Positions 9,319-49,921 of a DNA stretch of 64,000 nucleotides are shown one piece after another. The position numbers and the translations under genes were made by a program. Position 1 is the first letter of the stretch, and every line of letters starts with the position of its first letter. A model generated the notes under the pieces. It had not been told where the DNA came from and made no database searches. It saw nothing but the letters and a program-made list of their open reading frames with translations. Origin of the DNA: Nitrosomonas sp. (GTDB lineage: Bacteria > Pseudomonadota > Gammaproteobacteria > Burkholderiales > Nitrosomonadaceae); contig JAMWZW010000001.1 of NCBI GenBank assembly GCA_024281995.1, forward strand, positions 372,001-436,000, written 5' to 3'.

Positions 9319-10659
9319 TTGTATGATACAAATAGAAAAAGCTCGAATAAAATTTTTAGTCACAGGATTAAGAGATTGTCTTCAAAATTTTCTAAAAAGC
9401 ATATTATTGCCAAATCAAATCAATGTGTTTCTTGCGGTTTGTGTTTGCCGCATTGCCCCACTTATCGCTTGCTGAAATCCGAAGCTGACTCACCAAGAGG
9501 TCGTATTGCATTAATAAATGGAGTCGTTAGTGAACGTATTCCTTTGAATGGCAAATTTATACAACATATGGATCGATGTTTAACGTGCCGTGCTTGTGAG
9601 ATGGTTTGTCCTAATAATGTTGAGTTTGGATATTTAATTGATGGAGCTCGTGCGCTAATTGCTGATCAATCAACACCTTTTGTATTGAATCAGAATTCAG
9701 CTATTAATTTTTTGCTGAAGAAGCTATTGATAATAAAACCTGATCGGCTAGAACGATTGCGCCATATTCTCAGTTTTCTTAAGAAAACTAACTTTTTGCA
9801 AGTGCTATTGAAGCTTCCGCGATTAAAGAAAAACAAATTATTAGAAATTATCGTTCAACTTCCTTTGGTTAAGTTCCCCTATGTGGAAACTGCAGAGAGG
9901 ATGTGTATAAGTAATAGATGGGGTAAGGTCTATCCTGCAAAGGGGGTAGAGCGTGGTAAGGTAGGATTGTTTTTGGGTTGTGTGGCACGCCTAACTGATG
10001 TTGAAACATTAAACACAAGTATTTTTGTACTGAATTTGTTGGGATATAGCGTGCACATTCCATCCAACCAAACTTGCTGTGGGGCAATATTTCAACACAG
10101 TGGTGAATTAAAACAAGCTGCTGTGTTACTAGAAAAAAATAAAACAGCTTTTTCTGAAACTGGTGTAACTACAATAATTACAACTGCTTCGGGATGTGGT
10201 ATGCAATTGTTTGAGTCAGAAATAACCGGCAATCATTACAAAATCGTAGATATCAATCAATTTCTTGCTACTGCAGAAGGTTGGCAGGACATACAAATAG
10301 AGCCGCTACCACAAGAAGTTTTGGTGCATGATCCATGTAGTTTACGCAATGTGTTGCGCGGTGCAGCCTATCCATATCAGTTGCTTTCACGCATTCCTAA
10401 AGTGCAGGCTATACCTTTGGCGAGTAATGACCAGTGCTGCGGTGCCGCAGGAACTTACTTTATAGACCAACCAGAAATTGCAAACATGCTATTAAATAAT
10501 AAAACTATGGCTGTGGCAGAAAGTAAAGTCAAATACTTAGTAACCTCAAATATTGGTTGTGCAATGCATATGGCGAGTGACTTATATAAGAAAAATATAA
10601 ACACGGAGGTATTGCATCCTGTTACCTTATTGGCGAGGCAGATGGGGTGGAAATTGTAG
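9319..10659 (+). CDS. GlcF-like (Fe-S)-binding oxidoreductase subunit
   Basis: A 446-residue protein resembling the iron-sulfur subunit of glycolate oxidase. Two 4Fe-4S clusters are indicated by CVSCGLCLPHCPTYR (about residues 37-51) and CLTCRACEMVCPNN (about 92-105). Two CCG domains follow (GLFLGCVARLTD with TCCGAIF; HDPCSLRN with QCCGAAGTY). Such proteins pass electrons from a flavin dehydrogenase to quinones. No glcD or glcE flavoprotein lies nearby, and IS relics lie directly upstream, so partner loss is possible. The start is uncertain: the only in-frame upstream start is TTG 9319 with no clear ribosome-binding site, and the first 30 residues are basic and not conserved in type. Confidence 0.85.
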   Translation: MYDTNRKSSNKIFSHRIKRLSSKFSKKHIIAKSNQCVSCGLCLPHCPTYRLLKSEADSPRGRIALINGVVSERIPLNGKFIQHMDRCLTCRACEMVCPNNVEFGYLIDGARALIADQSTPFVLNQNSAINFLLKKLLIIKPDRLERLRHILSFLKKTNFLQVLLKLPRLKKNKLLEIIVQLPLVKFPYVETAERMCISNRWGKVYPAKGVERGKVGLFLGCVARLTDVETLNTSIFVLNLLGYSVHIPSNQTCCGAIFQHSGELKQAAVLLEKNKTAFSETGVTTIITTASGCGMQLFESEITGNHYKIVDINQFLATAEGWQDIQIEPLPQEVLVHDPCSLRNVLRGAAYPYQLLSRIPKVQAIPLASNDQCCGAAGTYFIDQPEIANMLLNNKTMAVAESKVKYLVTSNIGCAMHMASDLYKKNINTEVLHPVTLLARQMGWKL

Positions 10660-10791
10660 TGAAGCAGATTGTTGTATTAATTTAATGAATGTTTTTTGAT
10701 TTTTTATTAATTTTGGATCTCTACTGTGAAAGATTGGTTTTGCGATTGAATATCAGTCTATAATAAATAAAATTTTTCCCAATTAAAGATT

Positions 10792-11421
10792 ATGATTGAT
10801 ATTGATAAGCTTATCATCGGTTTTGATAGCGGTTTGCGCACATTGTTGATACCAGCTCAGACTGCGAGACCAGTTCCAGGTAAAGAATTGCCAGAAGCCG
10901 AACTTACTGAAATGGAGAAACGGTTATCCTGTGCATTAATGCGGGTAAACCATGTGGGTGAAGTATGTGCGCAAGCCTTATATCAGGGGCAAGGGTTAAC
11001 AGCACGTAATGAGGTTGTCCAACAGGTACTTATGCAGGCCGCACGTGAAGAGACAGAACATTTGGCTTGGACAGAACGGCGTATCGCTGAACTTGGAGGG
11101 CGCAAAAGCTTACTTAATCCATTGTGGTACGGTGGTTCATTTGTTATTGGCGTTGTAGCAGGATTGTTAGGTGATAAATGGAATTTGGGTTTCCTTGCTG
11201 AAACAGAGCATCAAGTAGAAGCTCATTTGGCTAGTCACCTCCAACATTTACCAAATAATGATGAGAAAAGCCGAGCTATTGTGGCACAAATGAAGAGCGA
11301 CGAGGCTAACCATGCAACAATGGCATTATCATATGGCGGTGCAGAGCAACTGCCGCTGCCTGTAAAGGTTGCAATGAACCTCGGGTCGAAAGTTATGACA
11401 CGAACAGCTTATTGGGTTTGA
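10792..11421 (+). CDS. coq7: Coq7-type demethoxyubiquinone hydroxylase
   Basis: Di-iron hydroxylase for a late ubiquinone ring step (2-polyprenyl-3-methyl-6-methoxy-1,4-benzoquinone to the 5-hydroxy form), replacing UbiF in many proteobacteria. The 209-residue protein has the ferritin-like ligand set: [35 protein letters not shown] and SDEANHA, which give the Glu and His ligands in the E, ExxH, E, ExxH order. A hydrophobic stretch ([11 protein letters not shown]) suits monotopic membrane binding. It lies just upstream of the yqgE-pyrC' run, a neighbourhood seen in related betaproteobacteria. Confidence 0.94.
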
Positions 11422-29588: not shown

Positions 29589-30785
29589 CTACAGAGGCGT
29601 TTGTGTAACTGTGGATTTTGCAATGCGTCTTGCCTGACTGATTTGTTCTAGTACTTTGAGAACCGCGCAACGCGGTGCGCCGATATTCAAGCGCATGAAT
29701 CCGCTGCCTTCCTGGCCAAATTGCACCCCGGGATTCAGGCCCACACCCGCTTCATGAATGAAAAAATATTTCAATTGCTTATCTGTCATACTCCAAGCGC
29801 GGCAATCGAGCCATAGTAAGTATGTGCCTTGCGCGGGAATGACTTTGATTTCCGGTAGATGTTGCGTCAAGTAGGCGCAAACTTCATCGCGCGTATCGTG
29901 CAAGTAGTGCAACAATGCTTCCAACCAGGCTTCACCGTCGCAGTATGCAGCTTCAAACGCGGCGATGCTGAACGGATTGGAGGCGCTGACATGCAATGTG
30001 TTGAACGCTTTGATGATAGCGGTGCGGATCGTTTTATCGGGAATGATCAAGGCTGAGAGGTCTAGCCCAGGGATATTGAAGGTTTTGCTCGGTGCCACGG
30101 CGGTAATGATTTTAACGTCATGTGAAATGGCGCCCAGTGCATGGTGGCGATTGCCGGGGTAAATCAGGTCGGCGTGGATTTCATCGGAAAAAATGATCAG
30201 ATTATGCGCTGAGGCAAGTTGTAGCAATTGCTCCAGTTCCGTAGGCGACCACACGCGCCCGACTGGATTGTGCGGTGAACAAAACAACAATAATTTCGCT
30301 TCTTTGGTGCAATGCTCTAAATGGTTAAAGTCGATGGTGTAGCGGTCATTTTCCAAGTGTAGCGGATTTTCGATCAAGTGCCGGCCGGTTTGCGTGGCGG
30401 CGGAGAAAAACGGAAAATACACCGGCGGCTGAATGATGATGGATTCGCCGGGTTGAGTCAGTGCCAAGACGGCGGCGTTAAGCGACGGCACCACACCAGG
30501 GCAAAACACGATCCAGTCGCGCTGGATGTTCCAATGGTGACGATGTTGCATCCAACCGATCAACGCTTCATACAGGCTATCGGGAAATTGGGTGTAACCA
30601 TAAATGGGGTGTTTGGCGCGCTCGATCAATGCCTGAGTGACTGCGGGTGGCGCGGCAAAATCCATGTCCGCCACCCAGACCGGAATGACATCGCTGGTGC
30701 CGAACATTGCTTGCCGCCCATCGTATTTGACGCTATGACTACCCTCGCGGTTGATTTCCTGATCGAAATCAAAGCCATAACTCAA
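29589..30785 (-). CDS. ovoB: PLP-dependent C-S lyase, probable ovothiol enzyme OvoB
   Basis: A 398-residue fold-type I PLP enzyme of the MalY/PatB group. Signs are VIPVWVADMDFAAPPAV, YGYTQFPDSLYEAL, the SPHNPVGRVW loop and the PLP lysine in APSKTFNIPGL. Such enzymes break C-S bonds. The ATG overlaps the ovoA stop by four bases (30782-30785), and OvoB is the PLP lyase that cleaves the histidyl-cysteine sulfoxide made by OvoA. That makes OvoB the best call over cystathionine beta-lyase. It is convergent with prfB, where base composition changes visibly. Confidence 0.86.
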   Translation of the reverse strand: MSYGFDFDQEINREGSHSVKYDGRQAMFGTSDVIPVWVADMDFAAPPAVTQALIERAKHPIYGYTQFPDSLYEALIGWMQHRHHWNIQRDWIVFCPGVVPSLNAAVLALTQPGESIIIQPPVYFPFFSAATQTGRHLIENPLHLENDRYTIDFNHLEHCTKEAKLLLFCSPHNPVGRVWSPTELEQLLQLASAHNLIIFSDEIHADLIYPGNRHHALGAISHDVKIITAVAPSKTFNIPGLDLSALIIPDKTIRTAIIKAFNTLHVSASNPFSIAAFEAAYCDGEAWLEALLHYLHDTRDEVCAYLTQHLPEIKVIPAQGTYLLWLDCRAWSMTDKQLKYFFIHEAGVGLNPGVQFGQEGSGFMRLNIGAPRCAVLKVLEQISQARRIAKSTVTQTPL

Positions 30786-32896
30786 GAAATTTTCTCCCAG
30801 ATAGTGACTTCCGACAGCGTGTGCTGGAATTTACGCTTGGTTTCACGAATCACAAAAGGTACGGCCACGGGTTCTTGGATCAAACGGAAATGCTTACCGA
30901 GAATTTCTTTCAGGCCATCCAGCGTGGTGAAATTTTCACCGTCACGTTTAAATCCGCCCACCCACGATTCTTTCTTGGTATGTTCCGTTAACCAGGTATA
31001 GGGCGATGTAATCATGAGTAAACCGCCACTATTGATGCGGGTATGGATACTGGTGAGCAGCTTAGCCGGATCGTACAGGCGATCGATTAAATTGGCGGCA
31101 AGAATCAGATCGTAACCGGTGAAAATTGGCTTCAGGTTGCACGCATCGCCCTGGAAAAACTCGACGTGATCTTTAATGTGATCCAATCCAAGGCTAGATA
31201 AGGTACGTTCCTTGTAGGAAATCAGTTCGCCTTCGTCGATCAAGGTGTAGCGTAAAATACCTTGTTGTGCCAGTTGCACGCCCTGACCGATAAAGCGTGC
31301 AGAAAAATCAATGCCGGTGACATGATCGAAATTGCGTGCCAGTTCGAAGGTGGAACGCCCGGAAGCGCACCCTAAATCCAGTGCAGTACGCTTAGGCCGG
31401 TTGCCCATTGCAGTGATGGCTATTTCTGCCAATGCCTTAGGGAAATTGGGCACGTCAAAGTACGTGTCACCGTAATGAAATTCAGCGTATTCCGACAGTA
31501 ATTTGTCAGTTTCATAATGCGAACTTGGTTGTGTTGCCGGTGCGTCCGAAACTACATAACGAAAGCCAGCATGCTGGAAGAAATGACGGCGGAACGCATA
31601 GCGCGAGCTGCGCAGCGATTCGTTACCACAGGAAATCCAGGAACCGCCTTTGATCAGGTTGTGTTGATTGTCAAAAGTGGGCGTGGTGAAATCGTCGTAT
31701 AACGGATGCACATCAAAGCCGGTGAATGGATAGGTCGGAGTTTCAGTCCACTGCCAGACGTTACCTGCGATATCAAAAAACTCGCCATGCGCGAATTCGG
31801 AAACGGGACAGCTGGAGGCATAATAATCCAGATGCAAATTGCCGCGAGCCCTTTCGTGCAGCGGAACTTCGAACAATTGCGCCACATCGTACAAGCGATA
31901 CCATTCGTCTTCCGTTGGCAACCTTACCGGTTGCTGGGAGATTGCAGCTTTCCAATTGCAAAAGGCTTTTGCCTCGTGATAGTTGACTTCTACCGGCCAA
32001 TTCCATGGCATCGGAACTTCTTCGGTCATCAAACGCAAATACCAGGTATCGCCTTTCTTTACCCAGAATGTCGGATGCTCCGCTTGCGTGAATTTTTGCC
32101 AGGAGCGGCCTTCTTCCTGCCAGTAGCTGGCGGTGCGATAGCCGTTGGCTTCGACAAAAGGTAGGAATTCTTCATTGCTGACCAAATACTTACTGGCTTG
32201 AAAAGCGGGAATGTCGGCCGTGTGCAAGCCATATTCATTGTCCCAGCCGTAATGTTGTTGGTCGGTTCTGCTTTTACTGATGGTAATAGTGCCTGCCGTG
32301 ACGTTGATCAGTTCGTTGTGTGGCGCGTTACCGGAATGCCGGCATGGTTGCCAGTTTGGGTGGGGTTGCACGAACTCAAGCGCATGCTGGCGAATCAGTA
32401 CCGATGATGTTTCCAGATGGATACGTTCGTGTTCAATGCCCATCAGTATTGGCCACCATGAGCTTTCCCAAGTAATCGGCAACACCAACGGCATGTCGGA
32501 AATCAGTTTGTCGACTATGTTGCGCATGGTTTTACGGTAACTGCGGACTTCTTCCACAGTAGGCCAATCGTAATGTGTGCTGTCCAGATCATCCCAACTC
32601 ATTTCATCGACACCGACAGCAAAAATGGATTCCAGTTTAGGGTTGATGCGTTCAGAAATAAGTCCCGCTAAAATTAACTTATTGACAAAGAATGTAGCTG
32701 TATGCCCGAGATAGAAAATCAATGGGTGGCGCAACGAAATGGGCTTTTTGTAATAAGCCTGGTCGTTACGCAGCATTTCAAAAAGCTCTTCATAACGATC
32801 CAATGTGGTATGAAAATAATTGCGTATCTCTGATCGTTTTAAGTTGATATCGCTACTATCTAACAAAGGTGTTCTTTGAAATAAAGGTTGTACCAT
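30782..32896 (-). CDS. ovoA: OvoA: 5-histidylcysteine sulfoxide synthase / N-methyltransferase
   Basis: Bifunctional enzyme of ovothiol synthesis. Its iron-dependent sulfoxide synthase joins cysteine to C5 of histidine, and its methyltransferase later methylates 5-thiohistidine at the imidazole. The 704-residue chain has a DinB-like N-domain with the iron ligands in FYLGHTATFF (H65) and GIEHERIHLE (H156, H160). An FGE/sulfatase-modifying-like domain covers about 195-440 (for example VRLPTEDEWYRLYD and FDIAGNVWQWTET). A Rossmann methyltransferase begins near 500 (ALDLGCASGRSTFELA). Ergothioneine EgtB lacks the fused methyltransferase. It is coupled to ovoB and divergent from the arsenic-type cluster across 202 bases. 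Confidence 0.93.
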   Translation of the reverse strand: MVQPLFQRTPLLDSSDINLKRSEIRNYFHTTLDRYEELFEMLRNDQAYYKKPISLRHPLIFYLGHTATFFVNKLILAGLISERINPKLESIFAVGVDEMSWDDLDSTHYDWPTVEEVRSYRKTMRNIVDKLISDMPLVLPITWESSWWPILMGIEHERIHLETSSVLIRQHALEFVQPHPNWQPCRHSGNAPHNELINVTAGTITISKSRTDQQHYGWDNEYGLHTADIPAFQASKYLVSNEEFLPFVEANGYRTASYWQEEGRSWQKFTQAEHPTFWVKKGDTWYLRLMTEEVPMPWNWPVEVNYHEAKAFCNWKAAISQQPVRLPTEDEWYRLYDVAQLFEVPLHERARGNLHLDYYASSCPVSEFAHGEFFDIAGNVWQWTETPTYPFTGFDVHPLYDDFTTPTFDNQHNLIKGGSWISCGNESLRSSRYAFRRHFFQHAGFRYVVSDAPATQPSSHYETDKLLSEYAEFHYGDTYFDVPNFPKALAEIAITAMGNRPKRTALDLGCASGRSTFELARNFDHVTGIDFSARFIGQGVQLAQQGILRYTLIDEGELISYKERTLSSLGLDHIKDHVEFFQGDACNLKPIFTGYDLILAANLIDRLYDPAKLLTSIHTRINSGGLLMITSPYTWLTEHTKKESWVGGFKRDGENFTTLDGLKEILGKHFRLIQEPVAVPFVIRETKRKFQHTLSEVTIWEKIS

Positions 32897-33098: not shown

Positions 33099-33776
33099 AT
33101 GACAGAAATTGCCTTAGTTTTAGTGTGCAAGCGACCCATACTCGGCAATGGCAAACAGAGGTTAGTCGCTAGTTTGGGTATTGGAATAACCCAGCAGGTT
33201 GCCAGTGCACTACTGGCTTGTGCGCTAGAAGATGCGTGCGAATGGCCGGATCCGGTAGTCATTGCACCCGCTGAAGTGAGTGACACCGAGTGGGCGCAAG
33301 CTTTAGCAGCGGTAATTCCTTCTCCGGTTATCATTGTGCCACAAATCGCGGGAAATCTGGGGCAGCGCTTGAATGCACTGGATCAAACATTGCGAGCGCA
33401 GGGCATGAAGCAACTTATTTTCATCGGCAGTGATGCGCCAGGGTTGACCGCAACAGATTATTTAGTAGCTCGTGTTGCATTGCAACACAGTGATGTGGCG
33501 TTGATTCCCGCGCTCGATGGTGGCGTCGTGTTGATGGGGAACCGTTGCGCATGGCCGGATTTGTCAGCACTGCCTTGGAGCAGCGGACAATTAGGAATAA
33601 CATTAAAACATGCTTGTCACTGCGTGGGCCTATCCGTAGCTACTTTGGAACAAAACTATGATGTCGATGAACCGCATGACGTGATGAAACTGGTATCTTT
33701 ACTGCAACAGGATGCGCGGCCAGCGCGCCGTGCACTGCTTGAATTGGTAACAACGCTGTCATTTCCATCCTTGTGA
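33099..33776 (+). CDS. TIGR04282-type glycosyltransferase (DUF2064)
   Basis: A 225-residue GT-A-like nucleotidyl/glycosyltransferase of the rSAM/selenodomain-associated transferase 1 family. The start IALVLVCKRPILGNGKQRL fits the family's KxP..G..KTRL pattern, then FIGSDAPGLTATDYL, with the metal-binding Asp, and ALIPALDGGVVLMG. These proteins occur beside ArsM and radical SAM genes in presumed arsenosugar clusters. The exact sugar and acceptor are unknown. It is the first gene of a nine-gene run. Seven bases separate it from the next transferase. Confidence 0.86.
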   Translation: MTEIALVLVCKRPILGNGKQRLVASLGIGITQQVASALLACALEDACEWPDPVVIAPAEVSDTEWAQALAAVIPSPVIIVPQIAGNLGQRLNALDQTLRAQGMKQLIFIGSDAPGLTATDYLVARVALQHSDVALIPALDGGVVLMGNRCAWPDLSALPWSSGQLGITLKHACHCVGLSVATLEQNYDVDEPHDVMKLVSLLQQDARPARRALLELVTTLSFPSL

Positions 33777-33783
33777 GTCATTA

Positions 33784-34473
33784 ATGCATAAATTCAGCGT
33801 AATCATTCCTTGTTTTCACGATGATGATAAGCTCGCGCACTTACTTGCGCAATTGCAACAGCTGCCAAATAAAGTGTGGCAGGTTATTGTCGTTGATGCC
33901 GCCGGCACTTCGCAGTGCGCTGAAATCTGTAAGCAGTTCGGGGCATTGCAAATAAAAACAGAACCTTGCCGTGGCCAACAGTTACGCACAGGTGCGGCGC
34001 AAGCAATGGGTGATGTCTTGTGGTTTTTACATGCCGATGCGCAATTATCGCCAGATCCTTTGACAGCTATGGCGCTTGCATTGGCGCGAGGTGCGATTGG
34101 TGGCTACTTTCGTTTTAATTTTTCCAGGCCGCGTGCGTGGCCAGCCCCGATTTTGGAAGCGGCGATTGCATGGCGTTGCCGTTTCGGTGTTCCATACGGT
34201 GACCAAGGAATTTTTATCACGCGGGAGACTTATCACCAAATAGGCGGTCATGCGTCGTGGCCATTGTTTGAAGAAGTGTCTTTGGTACGTGGTGCAAGGC
34301 ATTTAGGCAAGTTTTTGCCGCTGGATGAACCTATTTATATCGATTCCCGCCGTTGGCAGCGTGACGGCTGGTGGCGGCGTACATGGCATAATCGCAAGCT
34401 GAGCTTTTATTTCATGTGCGGCGTTTCGCCTCACAAATTGGCTGCGCGATATCATTCTAAAATTGATTCATGA
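33784..34473 (+). CDS. TIGR04283-type GT2 glycosyltransferase
   Basis: A 229-residue family 2 glycosyltransferase (rSAM/selenodomain-associated transferase 2). The N-terminus FSVIIPCFHDDDKLAHLL starts the nucleotide-binding fold. CRGQQLRTGAAQAMGDVLWF and LHADAQLSP supply the acceptor and DxD-like motifs. RFGVPYGDQGIFITRETY, then GGHASWPLFEEVSLV, are hallmarks of the subfamily. It pairs with the preceding TIGR04282 protein and probably acts in the same transfer. No membrane segment is predicted. Confidence 0.9.
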   Translation: MHKFSVIIPCFHDDDKLAHLLAQLQQLPNKVWQVIVVDAAGTSQCAEICKQFGALQIKTEPCRGQQLRTGAAQAMGDVLWFLHADAQLSPDPLTAMALALARGAIGGYFRFNFSRPRAWPAPILEAAIAWRCRFGVPYGDQGIFITRETYHQIGGHASWPLFEEVSLVRGARHLGKFLPLDEPIYIDSRRWQRDGWWRRTWHNRKLSFYFMCGVSPHKLAARYHSKIDS

Positions 34474-34513
34474 ATGACATAATGTTGCAATTAATTCCGA
34501 AGGAAGAAAGATC

Positions 34514-35560
34514 ATGCAAGAGATCGTACAAAGATATTATGGCGAAACGCTGACCAGTAACCGCGATTTGCAAACTAACGCATGTTGCTCGGATGCAAGT
34601 TTTCCGCATTACGTGAAATCGCTGTTGGCGCAAGTACATGGCGAAGTACAGGCACGCTATTATGGCTGTGGTTTGATTTTGCCCGAATTACTGGAGGGAC
34701 TGACCATTCTTGATCTGGGCTGCGGCGCCGGGCGCGATGTGTATGTATTGTCACAATTGGTTGGAGAGAAGGGTCAGGTTATCGGCGTGGATATGACCGA
34801 AGAGCAATTGGCGCTGGCACGGCAGTATGAAAAATATCATCAGAAAACATTCGGTTACAAACACAGCAATGTGCGATTTTTGCACGGCTACATTGAACGC
34901 TTACATGAAATTGAATTGTCTGATGCTAGCGTGGATATCATCGTATCTAATTGTGTGATTAATCTCGCGCCCGATAAGGGAGCTGTTTTGCGCGAAGCTT
35001 TCCGTGTCCTGAAGCCCGGTGGCGAATTGTATTTTTCCGATGTTTATAGTGACCGGCGGATTCCAGCAGCCTTGATGCACGATGCGGTTTTGTATGGCGA
35101 GTGTTTAAGTGGCGCATTGTATTGGAACGATTTTTTGCAACTGGCACGCAAGCATGGCTTCACAGATCCGCGTTTGGTCGACGATCGTTCAATCACCATT
35201 GAGAACCCGGAATTGGCGGAAAAAACGGGTAATATTCGTTTTTACTCAGCTACTTATCGTTTGTTTAAGCTGCATAATCTGGAATGGGCTTGTGAGGATC
35301 ATGGGCAGGCGGTAGTGTATCGTGGCACCATTCCAAATCATCACCATGCATTTCACTTTGATAAGCATCATCTGATTGAAACTGGTAAGCAATTTCCAGT
35401 ATGCGGCAACACCTGGCGTATGCTGCACGATACACGTTTCAACAAGCATTTTGATTTCTATGGCAACTTTGACCAGCATTTTGGTATTTTTCCAGGTTGT
35501 GGTATGGGTATTCCCTTTAGTGATGCTGACGTAAGTATGCAGAAAAGCGGGTGTTGTTAG
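34514..35560 (+). CDS. arsM: ArsM-like arsenite S-adenosylmethyltransferase
   Basis: SAM-dependent methyltransferase of 348 residues, the long form related to ArsM/AS3MT. The SAM loop is ILDLGCGAGRDVYVLSQLVG (about 65-84). The As(III)-binding cysteines expected for ArsM have counterparts in TNACCSD (C24, C25), VSNCVINL (C147) and LYGECLSG (C197). The C-terminal part (VCGNTWRMLHDTRF) is also AS3MT-like, and the chain ends GCC. The ribosome-binding site is GAAGGAAGAAAG. The adjacent radical SAM gene begins one base after its stop. No arsR-type repressor or arsenite efflux gene lies in the window. Confidence 0.87.
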   Translation: MQEIVQRYYGETLTSNRDLQTNACCSDASFPHYVKSLLAQVHGEVQARYYGCGLILPELLEGLTILDLGCGAGRDVYVLSQLVGEKGQVIGVDMTEEQLALARQYEKYHQKTFGYKHSNVRFLHGYIERLHEIELSDASVDIIVSNCVINLAPDKGAVLREAFRVLKPGGELYFSDVYSDRRIPAALMHDAVLYGECLSGALYWNDFLQLARKHGFTDPRLVDDRSITIENPELAEKTGNIRFYSATYRLFKLHNLEWACEDHGQAVVYRGTIPNHHHAFHFDKHHLIETGKQFPVCGNTWRMLHDTRFNKHFDFYGNFDQHFGIFPGCGMGIPFSDADVSMQKSGCC

Positions 35561-35561
35561 A

Positions 35562-36509
35562 ATGAATATTGATGTTGCGTTGATTTCTAGCGAACAGCAG
35601 AATCGTTCCAAACTGTGGTATGTGACGCCTGATAATAAGCCACGCGGTTTCATTCATTCGCATGGTTTGGATGAATTATGGTTTCATACCGGTACCGCAT
35701 GTAATTTGGCTTGTCCATTTTGCCTTGAGGGCTCAAAACCTGGCGATAATCGTTTGCAATTGATGCGTTTTGATGATGTCATGCCATTTATTGAAGAGGC
35801 ACTGGCGTTGGAGGTTAAGCAATTTTCATTTACCGGCGGGGAGCCATTTGTCAACAAGGATATGGTAAAAATTTTGGACGTTGCGTTGCGGCAACGACCA
35901 TGCATGGTGTTAACCAACGCTACTGAACCATTAATTAAACGCCTGCCGCAACTAAAAGGGTTGCGCAAACACCCTCACTCATTGCATTTCCGAGTTAGTT
36001 TGGATCATTTCATAGCAAGTGAGCATGACAAGCGCCGCGGTGAAGGTATGTTTGCTATGGCGTTACAGGGCCTGCGAGCCCTGCACGGTATGGGTTTTAG
36101 CGTATCGGTGGCGAATCAGGTTATCAAGGGATTGCCTGGGAATAAAATCGCGCAGAGTTTTGCTGAAGTATTTCGCCGCGCTGGTTTGCCGGCAAATTTG
36201 CCGCGCATTGAATTTCCTGAGTTTCATCCTCCAGGTGTTGCGGTTACTGCGCCACAGATTACGCAAAGTTGTATGGTAGATTATCAAACGGAATCAACTC
36301 GCCGGGAATTCATGTGCGCTTTCAGCCGTATGGTGGTGAAAAGCGATGGCGAATGCAAGGTTTATGCGTGTACCTTGGTGGATGATGATAGTGATTATGT
36401 GCTGGGAAAAAACCTGGCGGAGAGCTTGCAAGTGCCGGTAAGCCTGAAGCATCATCGCTGCTATAGTTGTTTCCGTTATGGCGCTTCGTGCAGCGAAATG
36501 AAACGCTAG
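35562..36509 (+). CDS. Radical SAM enzyme of the arsenic-type cluster
   Basis: A 315-residue radical SAM protein. The cluster-binding CxxxCxxC is TACNLACPFCLEG (C47, C51, C54), and the SAM GGE motif is FSFTGGEPFVNKDM. Cys-rich C-terminal segments (CKVYACTLVDD and CYSCFRYGASCSE) suggest a SPASM/Twitch-like auxiliary Fe-S site. By position after arsM and two transferases it takes the place of ArsS, which adds 5'-deoxyadenosyl to methylated arsenic. It lacks the usual ArsS DUF3641-like C-terminus as far as can be seen, so it may be a different enzyme with an analogous job. No in-frame TGA/selenocysteine occurs. Confidence 0.72.
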   Translation: MNIDVALISSEQQNRSKLWYVTPDNKPRGFIHSHGLDELWFHTGTACNLACPFCLEGSKPGDNRLQLMRFDDVMPFIEEALALEVKQFSFTGGEPFVNKDMVKILDVALRQRPCMVLTNATEPLIKRLPQLKGLRKHPHSLHFRVSLDHFIASEHDKRRGEGMFAMALQGLRALHGMGFSVSVANQVIKGLPGNKIAQSFAEVFRRAGLPANLPRIEFPEFHPPGVAVTAPQITQSCMVDYQTESTRREFMCAFSRMVVKSDGECKVYACTLVDDDSDYVLGKNLAESLQVPVSLKHHRCYSCFRYGASCSEMKR

Positions 36510-36583
36510 CGGTTTACTTGTTAATTAAATGAATACTGATAAAGACCAAAGAGATAGCTTGAATGGCTAGCATGTGAGTTGTC

Positions 36584-37426
36584 ATGCAAGAGATTTTACG
36601 ATGCCTAGTGGTTAATTCATTTTGTTTTGTGCTTGCTATGGGCTATGCCGCTCAGCTCGGTGCGCAAACAAAAAATACTTCGCAACGGCTGGTTGTGACC
36701 GGTTCGAGTACCATCGCACCTCTGGTGAATGAAATCGCCCGGCGATTTGAATCAACTCATCCGGAGATGCGTATCGATGTGCAAACAGGGGGTTCTTCGC
36801 GCGGTATCACCGAGGTACGTCAAGGAATTGCTGCGATTGGCATGGTGTCGCGTGCGTTGAAGTCGGATGAAAGGAATTTGCACGCCTTCACGATTGCGCA
36901 AGATGGCATTGGTGTCATTGTGCATGCTAGTAACCCAGTTACTGGATTTAGTCGACAACAAATCGCGGACATTTATACCGGCAAAATCACACGCTGGAAA
37001 GTCTTGGGTGGTGCCGACGAACGCATTACCGTGATCCATAAAGCCGAAGGCCGATCTACATTGGAGCTGTTTGTGGATTATATTCAACGTAGAAATAGTG
37101 AAATCAAGCCGCATGTCATCATCGGCGATAACGCGCAAGGTATCAAAGCAGTGACCGGCAATCCGCATGCCATCGGTTATGTTTCCATCGGTGCGGCGGA
37201 ATTTGAGATACGGCGCGGCTTGCCGTTGCGCTTATTGCCGTTGGATGGCATAGCGGCTTCCGTGGAGGCTGTGCGACAAGGCATTTTCCCTTTATCGCGT
37301 CCGCTGAATTTGGTGACTTTAGGAGAACCGCAAGGTTTGGCGCTTGAATTCATCGAGTTCGCCCGCTCGCCGCAAGTTCATGATCTCGTGGAAGCGCAAT
37401 ATTTCATTCCGGTCAATGCCGATTGA
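36584..37426 (+). CDS. PstS-like phosphate (or arsenate) binding protein
   Basis: Periplasmic substrate-binding protein of 280 residues. The signal peptide ends near LGAQTKN (residue 28). Oxyanion-binding loops include VVTGSSTIAPLVNE, QTGGSSRGITEV and the segment KAEGRSTLELFVDYI. The fold is that of PstS, but the protein is shorter than E. coli PstS (346). It precedes complete PstC, PstA and PstB genes in overlapping order. Within an arsenic-type cluster it could import phosphate to outcompete arsenate, or bring arsenate in. Sequence alone does not decide. Confidence 0.85.
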   Translation: MQEILRCLVVNSFCFVLAMGYAAQLGAQTKNTSQRLVVTGSSTIAPLVNEIARRFESTHPEMRIDVQTGGSSRGITEVRQGIAAIGMVSRALKSDERNLHAFTIAQDGIGVIVHASNPVTGFSRQQIADIYTGKITRWKVLGGADERITVIHKAEGRSTLELFVDYIQRRNSEIKPHVIIGDNAQGIKAVTGNPHAIGYVSIGAAEFEIRRGLPLRLLPLDGIAASVEAVRQGIFPLSRPLNLVTLGEPQGLALEFIEFARSPQVHDLVEAQYFIPVNAD

Positions 37427-38258
37427 TCAATGGCTACCCGGCGTATTGCGCGCGGGTGCATTGATAGCCTTGCTGATCATGTTATTTATTCTGATTTTTC
37501 TGATCGGTGAGTCCTGGCCGGTATTATCGAAATTATCCATCGCGCAGCTTGTTACTGATTCATCCTGGCATCCGCTGGAAGGCGCGTACAATCTCATGCC
37601 CATGTTAACCGGCACGGTGCTGGCCAGCACCGGCGCATTGTTGCTGGCTATTCCGCTAGGCTTGGCATCCGCGCTGTTCACACTGTTTTATGCACCACGG
37701 TATTTGGCGGTTAGTTACAAGCGGCTCATCGAGTTGCTCGCGGGAATTCCTTCCGTGGTTTTCGGATTTTGGGGACTGACCGTGCTGGTGCCGCTGATTA
37801 ATCAATGGCACCCGCCGGGCGCGAGTTTGCTGGCTGGTATATTGGTGCTGACGCTGATGATTTTGCCGACGGTCACCGTGACGGCGCACGCTGCCTTGGC
37901 GGCAGTATCGGATGAATTAGCGCGTAACGCGGCTGCATTGGGTTTGTCGCGTTGGGGAACGATTCAGGGGGTTATGTTGCCTGCTGCGAAAGCCGGGATC
38001 AGCGCCGGCATCATGCTAGCGGCGGCACGCGCGCTAGGCGAAACCATGGCGGTATTGATGGTGGCGGGCAATGTGGTGCAATACCCGGAAACCGTGTTTG
38101 ATCCGGTACGTACTTTGGCGGCCAACATTGCATTGGAAACAGCGTATGCGATGGGAGATCATAGGGCCGTGCTGTTCGTGTCGGGTCTGTTATTGATGGG
38201 ACTGATCATGGTGTTTTCCGCTTTGGCGGAAGCGTTGGAGAAACAGCAACATGCATGA
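37416..38258 (+). CDS. pstC: Phosphate-type ABC permease PstC
   Basis: Inner-membrane permease of 280 residues with six helices. The PstC-type segment AIPLGLASALFTLFYAP and the ABC-binding EAA loop (ALGLSRWGTIQGVMLPAAKAG) are clear. ALGETMAVLMVAGN is also typical. ATG 37416 overlaps the pstS-like stop by 11 bases. A longer in-frame extension beginning with TTG at 37344 lies inside the upstream gene and is unlikely. The stop overlaps the start of pstA. Confidence 0.88.
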   Translation: MPIDQWLPGVLRAGALIALLIMLFILIFLIGESWPVLSKLSIAQLVTDSSWHPLEGAYNLMPMLTGTVLASTGALLLAIPLGLASALFTLFYAPRYLAVSYKRLIELLAGIPSVVFGFWGLTVLVPLINQWHPPGASLLAGILVLTLMILPTVTVTAHAALAAVSDELARNAAALGLSRWGTIQGVMLPAAKAGISAGIMLAAARALGETMAVLMVAGNVVQYPETVFDPVRTLAANIALETAYAMGDHRAVLFVSGLLLMGLIMVFSALAEALEKQQHA

Positions 38259-39117
38259 TGCGGCACGTAAACGAAGCTTGCGTAAGCTGCGCGAAAATGC
38301 CGCGCAGTGTGTGATTTATTCTGCAGTAATGCTGGTCAGTGCGGTTTTTATCTGGCTGTTAATTGATCTGCTACGCGGCGGTCTTTCGCATTTATCATGG
38401 GAATTTATCACTGAACTGCCTCGTGATGCCGGACGGGCAGGGGGAATCGCATCCATCCTGGTATCAACACTGCTGATACTACTGGTGGCGGTGCTCACCG
38501 CAGTTCCGGTCGCATGGATGACGGCAATTTTATTGGCGGAATTTGTTGCAACCGGCAGTTGGTTTGGAAAAGCGGTACGATTCAGTTTGTATGTGCTGGC
38601 AGGCGTGCCGTCTATTGTTTTCGGGTTGTTTGGTAATGCATTCTTTTGCGTGTATTTAGGATTGGGCTTTTCGATTTTATCCGGCGGTTTGACGCTGGCA
38701 TGTATGTTACTGCCGATTTTGGCGAGTACTGCGGAAGCGGGTCTACGCGCCGTGCCGCATATTTACCGGCTGACTGCTTCAGCCCTTGGGTTGTCACGCG
38801 CGGCGGCGTTGTTGCATTTGATACTGCCCGCTGCCGCACCGGTCATGGCGGCCGGTTTGCTACTGGGGATCGGGCGAGCTCTGGCGGAGACGGCGGTTTT
38901 ACTGTTTACCAGCGGCTATGCCGAGCGCATGCCGGATTCCTTGTTGGATTCCGGACGCGCATTGGCATTGCATATTTTCGATTTGTCGATGAATGTTCCT
39001 GGCGGCGATGAACCAGCCTATGCCTCAGCATTGGTGCTGGTGAGTCTGTTGCTTTGCATTAATATTTTGGCGATGAAGTTTGCCTATGGTTTGCAACGCA
39101 GTAAACTTATGCCATGA
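38251..39117 (+). CDS. pstA: Phosphate-type ABC permease PstA
   Basis: Second permease, 288 residues and six helices. AVLTAVPVAWMTAILLAEF and LAGVPSIVFGLFGNAF match PstA. The EAA loop is ALGLSRAAALLHLILPAAAP, and GIGRALAETAVLLFTSGYA follows. It overlaps pstC by eight bases and pstB by four (ATGA), so the transporter genes are tightly coupled. The stretch 38461-38520 is 57% G+C by count. Confidence 0.88.
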   Translation: MHDAARKRSLRKLRENAAQCVIYSAVMLVSAVFIWLLIDLLRGGLSHLSWEFITELPRDAGRAGGIASILVSTLLILLVAVLTAVPVAWMTAILLAEFVATGSWFGKAVRFSLYVLAGVPSIVFGLFGNAFFCVYLGLGFSILSGGLTLACMLLPILASTAEAGLRAVPHIYRLTASALGLSRAAALLHLILPAAAPVMAAGLLLGIGRALAETAVLLFTSGYAERMPDSLLDSGRALALHIFDLSMNVPGGDEPAYASALVLVSLLLCINILAMKFAYGLQRSKLMP

Positions 39118-39959
39118 CTATCGAACAATTAACAGACCCATGCGATTCTTTTACACTTGGGCCGCTTGAAGCGGGTCCGGCTTGCTGTGATCCGCAACCA
39201 GTGATTGAAGTAAAGAATTTGTCGTTGCGTTATCACGGCAAGCTTGCACTGAAACAAGTATCGCTGGATATTTATAAAGGTTGCATCACAGCATTGATCG
39301 GACCGTCCGGTTGCGGAAAAACCAGCTTGTTGTCTGCAGTCAACCGCCTGACCGATCTGATTCCAGGTTGCAGCGTGAATGGCCGGATTCTGGTGCAAGG
39401 CCGCAATATTTATGATCCGGATGAGAATGTTCAGGCATTGCGCCGCCAGGTTGGCATGGTGTTCCAGAAACCCACGCCATTTCCGCTTTCTATCCGCCGT
39501 AATCTGTCGTTGCCGCTGCATGAGCATGGCGTCACCCGGAAAGCGGAAGTAGCCGACATTTCCGAGCAGGCGCTGCGCGACGTTGGCTTATGGGATGAAG
39601 TTTGCGACCGCATGGATTCAGCAGCGCTTAATTTATCGGGTGGACAGCAACAGCGGCTTTGTATCGCGCGTGCCTTGGCATTGCAGCCGCAAATTTTATT
39701 GATGGATGAACCGTGCAGCGCACTCGATCCGATCGCTTCCGGTATCGTGGAAGACCTAATTGGCCGTTTGCGTGGCCGCTATACCGTCGTCATCGTTACG
39801 CATAATCTGGCGCAAGCCAGGCGTATCGCCAATTATGCGGCTTTTTTCTGGGTCAGTGAGCATGCCGGGCAGTTGATCGAATTTGGCCGCTGCCAGAAAA
39901 TTTTTGAATCACCCCGCCACGAATTAACTGCAGCTTATGTGAACGGGGTGAGAGGGTAA
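39114..39959 (+). CDS. pstB: Phosphate-type ABC ATPase PstB
   Basis: ATP-binding subunit of 281 residues. Walker A is GPSGCGKTSLL, the Q-loop VGMVFQKPTPFPLS is characteristic of PstB, the signature is LSGGQQQRLCIARALAL and Walker B is ILLMDEPCSALDP, with the switch His in VIVTHNLAQA. A 25-residue lead precedes the domain. No phoU or phoBR follows, unlike standard pst operons, so it may be regulated differently. The flavoprotein fusion gene follows after 28 bases. Confidence 0.92.
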   Translation: MTIEQLTDPCDSFTLGPLEAGPACCDPQPVIEVKNLSLRYHGKLALKQVSLDIYKGCITALIGPSGCGKTSLLSAVNRLTDLIPGCSVNGRILVQGRNIYDPDENVQALRRQVGMVFQKPTPFPLSIRRNLSLPLHEHGVTRKAEVADISEQALRDVGLWDEVCDRMDSAALNLSGGQQQRLCIARALALQPQILLMDEPCSALDPIASGIVEDLIGRLRGRYTVVIVTHNLAQARRIANYAAFFWVSEHAGQLIEFGRCQKIFESPRHELTAAYVNGVRG

Positions 39960-39987
39960 CGGCGATAAAATATCGTAAAGGAAAAAC

Positions 39988-42132
39988 GTGAAAAAACGGG
40001 GATGGGTTGCTTTATTGCTGGGTTTGGCCATAAGTTGTTTTTTTATATTCGATCTGGATCGTTTCCTAAGTCTTGAGGTACTTAAAGAAAGCCGCGATGA
40101 TTTGCATCAGGCCTATCAACAACAACCGTTGCTGATCCTCGGCATTTATTCCTTAGTCTACATCGTCATGGCCGCATTGTCGTTTCCCGGCGCGACAGTG
40201 TTGACTCTGGCCGGGGGTGCCATGTTCGGCGTGTGGGTCGGTGTGCCGGTGGTGTTATTATCGGCCACCATCGGTGCCACGCTGGCGTTTTGGATGGCGC
40301 GTTACTTGTTGCGGGATATTGTTCAGCGGCGTTTTGGCAGGCGTCTGGAAACTATCAATAAGGGATTGGCACGCGATGGCGCATTTTATTTGTTTTCACT
40401 GCGCTTAGCGCCAGTGTTTCCGTTTTTCCTGATCAATTTACTGATGGGATTGACGACGCTGCGAAGCAGCACTTATTTTTGGGTCAGCTTGGTCGGGATG
40501 TTTGCCGGAACTGCCGTGTACGTCAATGCAGGTACGCAGTTGGCGGCGATTACCGAGTTATCGGATATCATGTCGCCAGCACTGGTAATTTCATTGACTG
40601 TCCTGGCATTGTTTCCATGGCTGGGTCGCTGGATTGTCGAACAGATCAAGATCCGGCGGTTTTATGCACGTTGGCCCAAACCGGTGCAGTTTGACCGTAA
40701 TCTGATTGTAATCGGTGCCGGTGCCGCTGGGCTGGTGAGCGCTTACATTGCCGCGGCTACGCGCGCCAAGGTGACATTAATCGAGCGTCATAAAATGGGG
40801 GGAGATTGCCTCAACTATGGCTGTGTGCCATCGAAGGCTTTGATTCGTACCGCCACTTTCTTGCACCAGGCAAAAAATGCGCAATCGCTAGGCCTTGCTC
40901 AGATCAGCACACAATACGATTTCGCGGAGGTGATGGCAAGGGTTGATAGAGTGGTTAAAACCGTTGCGCCGCATGATTCGGAGGAACGTTACAGGCAATT
41001 GGGCGTAGAGGTATTGCAAGGAGAAGCGATCATTACTTCACCGTGGTCGGTAGAGGTCAATGGGCAACCATTGACCACGCGTGCCATCGTTATCGCTACC
41101 GGCGCAAGTCCGCTGATACCGAAAATTCCCGGCCTAGAGTCGGTACGCTATTACACCTCGGATACCATTTGGTCATTGACCGAGCGGCCGCAACGTTTGG
41201 TGGTACTAGGTGGTGGGCCGATTGGCTGCGAATTGGCGCAAGCTTTTGCACGTCTGGATTGCCAGGTAACACAGGTAGTACGCAGTGATTTGTTGCCGCG
41301 TGAAGATGCCGATGCAGTGAGCTTGGTTAAAGCGGCATTGCAAGCAGACGGTGTGACAATCTTGGCGCAAACCGAAACGTTGCGATGTGAAAAACAAGGC
41401 GATGCGCAATTTTTGCTGCTAAGCGATCAAAGCGGCGCGCCACTGCGGCTGCCATTTGATGCGCTACTTTGCGCTATCGGCCGGGTGCCGCGAACAGAAG
41501 GTTTTGGGTTGGAACAACTGGGTATTCCAGTATCCGATACACATGCTATTGAAACCAATGCCTGGTTGCAAACCATTTACCCCAATATCTATGTTTGCGG
41601 CGATGCCGCCGGTCCCTATCAGTTTACGCACATGGCCGCGCACCAAGCCTGGTATGCATCGGTCAATGCCTTGTTTGGCAATATTAAGTCACTCAAGGTG
41701 GATTATTCGGTGGTTCCTTGGGCCACATTTACCGATCCGGAAATTGCCCACGTGGGGTTATCGGAAAAAGAAGCCCAAGCGCGCGGCATTGCCTTTGAAG
41801 TGACGCGTTTTAATCTTGCCGAACTGGATCGTGCGATTGCCGACGAAGCCGCGCATGGTTTCGTGAAAGTACTGACGGTGCCAGGCAAGGATCGCATTCT
41901 GGGTGTCTGTATCGTGAGTGCACACGCTAGCGATTTGCTTGCTGAATTTATACTGGCGATGAAGCACGGCCTGGGGTTGAACAAGATTCTTGCCACCATC
42001 CACACTTATCCGACCTGGTCGGAAGCTAATAAATATGCTGCAAGTGCTTGGAAACGTGCGCATGCGCCGCAATGGTTGTTGAGAGGATTGGAGAAATATC
42101 ATGCTAAACGACGTGGCAAGGCGCATGCATAA
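39988..42132 (+). CDS. VTT/TVP38 membrane domain fused to MerA-like flavoprotein
   Basis: A 714-residue fusion. Residues 1-225 are a TVP38/TMEM64 (DedA-superfamily VTT) membrane domain (SFPGATVLTLAGGAMFGVWV; FSLRLAPVFPFFLINLLMGL). Residues 236-705 are a class I disulfide oxidoreductase with the FAD fold LIVIGAGAAGLVSAYIA, the redox pair C274/C279 in GGDCLNYGCVPSKAL, the NAD fold VVLGGGPIGCELAQAFARL and the FAD motif IYVCGDAAGPYQ. Mercuric reductase's N-terminal HMA domain and C-terminal CC pair are absent (it ends RRGKAHA). The substrate is unknown. The GTG start at 39988 follows AAAGGAAAAAC. It probably belongs to the upstream cluster. Confidence 0.88.
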   Translation: MKKRGWVALLLGLAISCFFIFDLDRFLSLEVLKESRDDLHQAYQQQPLLILGIYSLVYIVMAALSFPGATVLTLAGGAMFGVWVGVPVVLLSATIGATLAFWMARYLLRDIVQRRFGRRLETINKGLARDGAFYLFSLRLAPVFPFFLINLLMGLTTLRSSTYFWVSLVGMFAGTAVYVNAGTQLAAITELSDIMSPALVISLTVLALFPWLGRWIVEQIKIRRFYARWPKPVQFDRNLIVIGAGAAGLVSAYIAAATRAKVTLIERHKMGGDCLNYGCVPSKALIRTATFLHQAKNAQSLGLAQISTQYDFAEVMARVDRVVKTVAPHDSEERYRQLGVEVLQGEAIITSPWSVEVNGQPLTTRAIVIATGASPLIPKIPGLESVRYYTSDTIWSLTERPQRLVVLGGGPIGCELAQAFARLDCQVTQVVRSDLLPREDADAVSLVKAALQADGVTILAQTETLRCEKQGDAQFLLLSDQSGAPLRLPFDALLCAIGRVPRTEGFGLEQLGIPVSDTHAIETNAWLQTIYPNIYVCGDAAGPYQFTHMAAHQAWYASVNALFGNIKSLKVDYSVVPWATFTDPEIAHVGLSEKEAQARGIAFEVTRFNLAELDRAIADEAAHGFVKVLTVPGKDRILGVCIVSAHASDLLAEFILAMKHGLGLNKILATIHTYPTWSEANKYAASAWKRAHAPQWLLRGLEKYHAKRRGKAHA

Positions 42133-49255: not shown

Positions 49256-49921
49256 TCACGATTTTTCGGACGGATTGCGGGCATTTCTTCGATTGTTGTA
49301 GCGATGTTTGAGATACTCTATGATTGGCGGTGTGATCGATAAAATGATAATTGCCAGGATAATAAGCTTGAAGTTTTGCTGCACCATTGGAAGCTGTCCG
49401 AAATAAAAGCCTGCGTAAACAAAGATGCCAACCCAAAGCACAGCACCGACAACGTTATAAGCTATAAAAGTGCGGTAGGGCATGGTTCCGATACCTGCAA
49501 CAAAGGGTGCAAAAGTACGAATGATGGGAATGAAGCGCGCGATGATGATCGTCTTGCCACCATATTTGAGATAAAACGCATGCGTTTTATCGAGGTACTC
49601 GCGCTTGAAAAAACGAGATTCACGCGAAGTAAAAACTTTGGGTCCCGTTCTTTTTCCTATCCAATAATTTACCGAGTCTCCCAAAATTCCAGCGATGCAT
49701 AATCCGACAAATAATACATGCGGACTAAGCTGCGAGTCTTTTAATGATGCGAGCGATCCCGCGGCAAATAATAATGAATCACCCGGTAAAAAAGGCATGA
49801 TAACCAAGCCCGTTTCACAAAAAATAATCAAGAACAGGATGCCATAAATCCACAATCCGTATTCTGAAGCAAGTTGTTGAAGATGGATGTCAATGTGAAG
49901 AATAAAGTCAATTAGAAACAT
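49256..49921 (-). CDS. DedA family membrane protein
   Basis: A 221-residue VTT-domain protein close to YqjA/Ygh[22 protein letters not shown] is split over the first re-entrant segment, [17 protein letters not shown] follows, and [20 protein letters not shown] carries the conserved Arg. Recent work implicates DedA proteins in recycling undecaprenyl phosphate and phospholipid scrambling. A second VTT domain in this window is the N-terminal part of the flavoprotein fusion at 39988. It lies downstream of hpnN on the same strand by position, but transcription runs toward lower coordinates, so dedA precedes hpnN. Confidence 0.94.

Follow-up and report, generated by a model that had tools for sequence, protein, structure and literature searches.

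Introduction

Two radical S-adenosylmethionine (SAM) reactions that form carbon–arsenic bonds are named in the excerpted text of a review, adenosylation (arsenosugar) and aminocarboxypropyl transfer (arsinothricin). In ArsM/ArsS arsenosugar clusters (family models TIGR04167, TIGR04282 and TIGR04283), two transferase types and a VTT-domain flavoprotein recur around the radical SAM enzyme ArsS. The arsinothricin genes arsQML of Burkholderia gladioli, as far as the excerpted report goes (PMC8552651), place ArsM beside a radical SAM gene without ArsS, and the bisenarsan (bsn) cluster of Streptomyces, a further case of bacterial organoarsenical secondary metabolism, is without SAM-dependent enzymes in the part of its description at hand (PMC12159101). 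Here we report on a run of nine genes at positions 33099–42132 of a 64,000-nucleotide stretch of Nitrosomonas sp. DNA (GenBank assembly GCA_024281995.1, contig JAMWZW010000001.1, positions 372,001 to 436,000), referred to in its entirety as the window. Unlike the ArsM/ArsS clusters this locus has no ArsS: a radical SAM enzyme of another family stands where ArsS normally stands in a five-gene arsenosugar-type unit. Reading the function of the cluster from the company its genes keep, we lean on balance towards an arsenosugar-type pathway in which this enzyme would do the job of ArsS, that is, 5'-deoxyadenosyl transfer to methylated arsenic.

Results and Discussion

The radical SAM gene (35562–36509, on the forward strand as are all nine genes of the run) encodes a 315-residue protein with a PF04055 domain and a CxxxCxxC cluster motif, whose cysteines C47, C51 and C54 are kept in all 51 aligned sequences (the window protein and those of 50 of the 80 loci described below). 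C237, C252, C270, C300 and C303 are likewise found in 51 of 51, and C310 in 50, the remaining row stopping short of it. Any equation of the locus with an ArsM plus ArsS cluster that the first-pass annotation of the window may imply is not supported: the enzyme reaches 46.2 bits, over the core only, against the ArsS model TIGR04167 (cut-off 300), and a true ArsS used as control, from Nitrosomonas genome G035, scores 471 bits. The nearest named family is Rv1681 (NF049973), also matched over the core only (96.5 bits, cut-off 380); the Rv1681 family is matched by all 51 aligned sequences and ArsS by one of them at E 1e-15. Comparison of the family profile with ten true ArsS sequences in hhalign returned a probability of 97%. 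Homology to ArsS over the whole length was nevertheless rejected, as higher scores (103 and 98, against 86 for ArsS) came from two radical SAM families of the same genomes that served as controls, and the 97% therefore shows only the common radical SAM core. Assignment of the controls, X and Y, was by eye; of the ten rows of Y, three lack CxxxCxxC, being truncated or wrong open reading frames (ORFs), and X, which gave the score of 103, is HpnH by its motif. HpnH, the adenosylhopene transferase, also adds a 5'-deoxyadenosyl group; it shares the radical SAM core with the window enzyme and differs in the C-terminal part. With its score on TIGR04167 and its whole-length match to ArsS no better than that to controls, the gene was rejected as a candidate ArsS. 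An AlphaFold2 model (predicted local distance difference test score 90.1) has SkfB (6efn) as best match in the PDB (E 9.6e-12, template modelling (TM) score 0.58), and the top matches, SkfB, BlsE and MoaA, come with modest TM scores of 0.45–0.58. Judged by these profile comparisons, the enzyme belongs to a family separate from ArsS and without a name in the family libraries searched; a full-text search of the open-licence PubMed Central literature found no description of it.

The gene directly upstream (34514–35560) encodes a 348-residue methyltransferase whose identity as ArsM, the As(III) SAM methyltransferase, is well supported by homology, because a profile built from 12 sequences aligns almost end to end with solved ArsM structures (5evj, E 1.9e-128, positions 2–342; 4fr0, E 1.9e-111, positions 2–328) and the arsenic-site cysteines are invariant. 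C24/C25, C52, C147 and C197, all of which line up with cysteines of 5evj, are kept in the 12 aligned sequences, as is a C-terminal GCC. This identification stands beside scores that miss the cut-offs of the NCBI models, with 100.2 bits for AsSugarArsM (NF038099, cut-off 400) and 192 bits for arsenite methyltransferase (NF008823, cut-off 263). The first-pass annotation had asked whether full alignment might move the methyltransferase to a non-arsenic family; such an alignment did not place it in one.

Two transferase genes precede ArsM. The first (33099–33776, 225 residues) encodes a TIGR04282-like (CofC-like; Pfam DUF2064) putative arsenosugar transferase or nucleotidyltransferase, and the second (33784–34473, 229 residues) a GT2 protein that belongs to TIGR04283, "arsenosugar biosynthesis glycosyltransferase" (202.7 bits, NCBIfam cut-off 182). 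NCBI names both families as arsenosugar glycosyltransferases. The last gene of the run (39988–42132) encodes a 714-residue fusion of a VTT domain (PF09335, residues 69–183) with a pyridine-nucleotide-disulphide oxidoreductase (PF07992 and PF02852, residues 238–684), hereafter VTT-flavoprotein. Gaps of 7, 40, 1 and 74 bases separate the genes from the first transferase to pstS, the genes pstS, pstC, pstA and pstB overlap one another, and 28 bases lie between pstB and the VTT-flavoprotein gene. The nine same-strand ORFs with short gaps or overlaps are thus as the first-pass annotation had them, and NCBIfam and Pfam scans bore out the gene families it had named; its nine-gene cluster stood as a co-located set and had to be narrowed as a unit. 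The recurring unit comprises five genes, for the TIGR04282-like and TIGR04283 transferases, ArsM, the radical SAM enzyme and the VTT-flavoprotein, with PstSCAB as an optional insert. Chance does not account for the co-location, as the same neighbours recur across many genera. Alignment of the upstream DNA of four genomes revealed no regulator site upstream of the operon.

This recurrence was followed in a scan of GTDB contigs, in which, at E 1e-3, a relative of the radical SAM enzyme is encoded in at least 432 of at least 594 candidate stretches. The 80 best of these (at least 432) loci, 47–79% identical to the window enzyme, come from Nitrosomonas, Nitrosovibrio, Methylotenera, Marinobacter, Halomonas, Amphritea, Alcanivorax and scattered other phyla, with Oceanospirillales among the holders. 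Within seven retained ORFs on either side of the radical SAM gene, a VTT-flavoprotein is found at 44 of the 80 loci, a TIGR04282-type transferase at 41, a TIGR04283-type transferase at 35 and ArsM at 29, in 25 of these 29 as the immediate same-strand neighbour; at least one of the four partners is present at 70 loci. At 65% identity or more the gene occurs in 36 of 61 same-genus genomes and in none of 40 other genomes sampled from the order, and at E 1e-15 it occurs in eight of 369 genomes sampled from the class, two of which are the window's own genome and a same-genus one. Among the 37 same-genus genomes searched for both genes, 24 have ArsM and the radical SAM enzyme, one has ArsM alone (G001), none has the radical SAM enzyme alone and 12 have neither (Fisher p 7e-9, not corrected for relatedness). 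In a further phylum sample, of loci with short flanks, ArsM lies beside the radical SAM gene at 5 of 20 loci: L176 and L178, at 42–52% identity, and the more distant L181, L182 and L190, the linkage still being seen at 32–34% identity. At L181 ArsM adjoins the radical SAM gene, and the order at L182 is TIGR04283-type transferase, radical SAM enzyme, ArsM, TIGR04282-type transferase.

The same sample holds a few arrangements of its own. L190 encodes, at 109–1482 on the reverse strand and beside the radical SAM and ArsM genes, a 457-residue fused GT2–DUF2064 protein (TIGR04283-type plus TIGR04282-type), which hints at joint action of the two transferases. L183–L189 and L191–L194 carry a related radical SAM group with a C-terminal CxTCxxxGxIC[ST]N motif and no ArsM in their short flanks; at L185 a flavoprotein gene precedes the radical SAM gene and one for a calcineurin-like phosphoesterase follows it. 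Outside this sample, at Marinobacter loci such as L081, L107 and L116, the radical SAM enzyme and VTT-flavoprotein occur with a symporter of SSS type and with a roughly 322-residue protein that has no Pfam or NCBIfam match and by eye resembles the product of a gene of ArsS loci L137–L139, and an extracytoplasmic function (ECF) sigma factor gene lies near several Marinobacter loci.

True ArsS loci have similar company. At the 11 such loci examined, nine have a VTT-flavoprotein, nine a TIGR04283-type transferase, six a TIGR04282-type transferase and two ArsM. Their VTT-flavoproteins are 45–60% identical to that of the window and their transferases more distant, at 28–31% (TIGR04283-type) and 21–33% (TIGR04282-type). 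Of 49 genomes with the new radical SAM enzyme, none has ArsS at E 1e-20. Only one of the 37 same-genus genomes, Nitrosomonas G035, has an ArsS over the cut-off, and its ArsS place (L135) comprises ArsS, ArsM, both transferases, DUF547, a VTT-flavoprotein and PstSCAB; the presence of DUF547 and an ECF sigma factor was verified in this cluster as well as in representatives of new-family loci. G035 also has a window-type place (L034), where ArsM (81% identical) and the radical SAM gene (71%) are intact beside ovothiol genes. In quick trees, for which Shimodaira–Hasegawa-like approximate likelihood ratio test values are the only support, the ArsM and VTT-flavoprotein sequences intermix the two partner types, ArsS and the new radical SAM enzyme. 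The VTT-flavoproteins of two ArsS loci (G035 and G065) group with those of Nitrosomonas and Methylotenera new-family loci (branch 99), and five further ArsS-locus rows form a clade with one new-family row. Both ArsS-locus ArsMs (G035 and G079) fall within a supported clade (97) of radical SAM-linked ArsMs (L074, L124 and L125); rows G063 and G001 of this tree are labelled "ArsS" though not beside ArsS. The TIGR04283-type transferases split mostly by partner type. Four very long rows (L132_S11529, L103_n6931, L077_n8776 and L127_n3768), probably not true orthologues, were left in the trees, and L132_S11529 may inflate the label-change count in that of the VTT-flavoproteins.

Two sets of observations bear on the reaction itself. 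In arsenosugar formation, adenine is removed from a 5'-deoxyadenosyl-arsenic intermediate. At 5 of the 80 loci (L063, L070, L090, L104 and L108) the first or second gene downstream, on the same strand, belongs to a phosphorylase cluster, of which the one representative scanned is a 5'-methylthioadenosine (MTA) phosphorylase (TIGR01694, 283.7 bits, cut-off 274.85); such a neighbour would fit a 5'-deoxyadenosyl product that needs its adenine removed. The second set concerns C310, a cysteine at 78 of the 80 loci, not reached at one and replaced by an in-frame TGA at one, L122 (gene at 10001–10888), where S-D and, five codons on, a second stop follow the TGA, as in the radical SAM family. Stops near residue 314 at L068, L085 and L104 are ordinary ends. 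The L122 genome has SelB (393.7 bits), and the TGA is followed by a 7-bp hairpin (loop GGUCA) whose folding energy is ordinary relative to shuffles (z -0.61). The same genome carries, at L172, an ArsM-like gene (165 bits, below cut-off) that by eye has a TGA at the position of arsenic-binding C197 and whose protein has no counterpart of C147. A search of one SelB locus only of this genome found no tRNA-Sec, and there was no second TGA case among the matches listed in the phylum of L122 (48 of 392 genomes at E 1e-30, four above 350 bits including L122's own). Taken together, the TGA at C310, SelB, the hairpin and the TGA at the C197 position suggest a thiol or selenol role at C310, and both TGA-containing genes are possible selenoproteins; the L122 gene could also simply end at its TGA.

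The pathway that we favour would start with methylation of As(III) by ArsM, a step for which homology is strong. The radical SAM enzyme would attach the 5'-deoxyadenosyl group of SAM to a trivalent (di)methylarsenical, as ArsS does, and the adenine would be removed by an enzyme of MTA-phosphorylase type, whose gene neighbours the radical SAM gene in some relatives and presumably lies at another place in this genome. The TIGR04282/TIGR04283 pair would then activate the arsenoribose and transfer it to an acceptor, possibly glycerol or a lipid. The VTT-flavoprotein might act at the membrane to hold arsenic or a thiol in reduced form, move the lipid product, or both, and the Pst transporter, as an optional add-on, might serve as an arsenate entry route or in phosphate recovery. 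Where the first-pass annotation had proposed a route from oxyanion uptake to organoarsenicals, ArsM identity, the transferase family names and the family-wide neighbourhood thus support an arsenosugar-type pathway, and uptake as part of it finds little support. A bolder version, which we put forward tentatively and at rather less than an even chance, holds that carbon–arsenic bonds are also formed, through adenosylation of arsenic, by a second radical SAM family that is widespread and arose independently of ArsS. This family would swap with ArsS in shared clusters, could use selenocysteine at C310 (as a terminal thiol to arsenic or cluster) and would take inorganic arsenite as substrate in genomes without ArsM.

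Were the radical SAM enzyme merely a divergent ArsS in a canonical ArsM/ArsS cluster, the similar partner genes at ArsS loci would be as expected, the TGA of L122 would recall the "(seleno)protein" in the ArsS name, and a short, weak C-terminal HxC-x2-C...SC likeness to ArsS (hhalign E 0.0044, 8% probability, 15 columns) does exceed that of the controls (E 0.33–0.52). Family membership is what fails, with a score far below the TIGR04167 cut-off, a whole-length match no better than those to the controls, Rv1681 as nearest named family and a true ArsS coexisting in G035; we therefore hold this explanation to be extremely improbable, shared function with ArsS being our main hypothesis. Also very improbable is a pathway of the arsinothricin type, in which the enzyme, like ArsL, would transfer a 3-amino-3-carboxypropyl group to As(III), with methylation of the product by ArsM to follow. 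ArsL, in the excerpted account (PMC8552651), is a noncanonical radical SAM enzyme that works with ArsM, as the adjacency of ArsM and a non-ArsS radical SAM gene in the window would allow, but it has 428 residues with its CX3CX2C motif at 194–201, compared with 315 residues and 47–54 here. There is no GntP-type permease like ArsQ among the nine genes, the window ArsM reaches only 155 on the model for arsinothricin ArsM (cut-off 500), and the extra transferases, as well as the MTA phosphorylase neighbours, would have no role there; the VTT-flavoprotein is a further gene that sets the window apart from arsQML.

Several findings weigh against the pathway that we favour. Window-type ArsM (E 1e-40) was found in 20 of 49 genomes with the radical SAM enzyme, picked by hand from 50 of the 80 loci, and not in 29. 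A broader ArsM model recovered a candidate in four of those 29 (above the cut-off in G505, below it in G504 and G514 and, as a split match, in G483), so that 25 of the 49 have no ArsM candidate, and a universal dependence of the radical SAM enzyme on ArsM was rejected on this count. Ten of the 80 loci are without any of the four partners by the clustering used, although four of the ten are shorter than 9 kb and L090 in fact has an adjacent ArsM fragment at a contig edge. The first transferase obtains 104.6 bits across the whole TIGR04282 profile (cut-off 134); it probably works like TIGR04282 proteins, and we do not claim formal membership. Nor does sequence alone predict the reaction of the radical SAM enzyme, whose hhalign match to ArsS is no stronger than its matches to the controls. 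In G035, all that L034 keeps of its TIGR04283-type gene is the last 87 residues, and the 19.9 kb around it contain neither a TIGR04282-type gene nor a VTT-flavoprotein; two complete parallel systems in this genome were rejected, the window-type transferases being down to a remnant and the VTT-flavoprotein not nearby. Either the ArsS set serves both enzymes in G035, or the window-type set has become redundant and is being lost; overlapping roles would agree with both possibilities and are proven by neither.

In an alternative reading, a core of radical SAM enzyme, VTT-flavoprotein and transferases would act on something other than methylated arsenic, be it inorganic As(III) or a non-arsenic nucleoside or lipid, with ArsM as a frequent accessory. 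The genomes without an ArsM candidate argue for it, as do the Marinobacter loci, with the gene content given above and window-type ArsM in 4 of 14 genomes searched. Seven of the 11 genomes with true ArsS are also without window-type ArsM at E 1e-30 (it is present in four, one of them as a partial match), and ArsS clusters without ArsM may be common too. Either the core is able to work without ArsM, or ArsM is inessential to the cluster products. On the other side, all 24 same-genus genomes with the radical SAM enzyme also have ArsM, adjacency to ArsM is kept in distant relatives (5 of 20 loci of the further phylum sample), and the transferase families carry arsenosugar names at NCBI. We regard this alternative as unlikely without being far-fetched, and retain the arsenosugar-type pathway as our working reading.

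The optional insert of the window consists of genes for a PstS-type substrate-binding protein (36584–37426; TIGR02136 168.3 bits, cut-off 206.6; PF12849), the permeases PstC (37344–38258; TIGR02138 232.3 bits, over cut-off; the listed TTG probably lies upstream of the true start) and PstA (38251–39117; TIGR00974 215.7 bits, over cut-off), and a divergent PstB ATPase (39114–39959; TIGR00972 324.6 bits, under the cut-off of 343.2). Two other PstB genes, both over the family cut-off, lie elsewhere in the genome, by eye one as part of an apparently full pstSCAB set and the other accompanied at a contig end by pstC and pstA, which makes the window PstB a divergent third copy. That PstSCAB is an ordinary phosphate transporter lying here by chance, with no part in an arsenic pathway, falls only a little short of an even chance, as PstS is near the cluster in just 2 of 20 fetched genomes and at 4 of 80 loci, in five of these six relatives directly after the VTT-flavoprotein gene and not before it, and the window PstS retains ordinary TGSST/SRG-type motifs. 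Its position inside a same-strand gene run and its status as a third, divergent system argue the other way, as does PstSCAB adjoining ArsM in the ArsS cluster of G035, the one of 11 true ArsS loci with PstS beside ArsM. Phosphate transport genes also occur in arsenic islands, according to the excerpted text of a published report (PMC3834237).

The first-pass annotation had remarked that arsR, arsB and arsC are missing, and NCBIfam and Pfam scans likewise found none of them among the nine genes. The arsR, arsB/acr3 efflux and arsC set of a detoxifying ars operon is thus not found among these genes; elsewhere in the window genome there are two ArsC-family proteins and no match to Acr3, ArsB and ArsR not having been searched genome-wide. 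Beside the cluster, divergent ovothiol genes occupy 29589–32896 on the reverse strand and encode OvoA (TIGR04344 691 bits, TIGR04345 347 bits) and a protein of pyridoxal phosphate aminotransferase fold, PatB-like by eye; only some Nitrosomonas keep ovothiol genes next to the arsenic-type cluster. Near the cluster, at 49256–49921 on the reverse strand, there is also a gene for another VTT-domain protein, a stand-alone one.

Conclusion

If the reading proposed here is true, a further carbon–arsenic-forming radical SAM family, held by nitrifiers, Marinobacter, Halomonas and others, would widen the expected makers of arsenosugars and arsenolipids, and annotation based on ArsS would miss the family. 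On the bolder version, arsenosugar-type metabolism would extend to ammonia oxidisers, methylotrophs and marine oil degraders. Two unlike enzymes that apparently swap in one kind of cluster, and that are both present in Nitrosomonas G035, offer a direct test system for the fold features needed in arsenic adenosylation.

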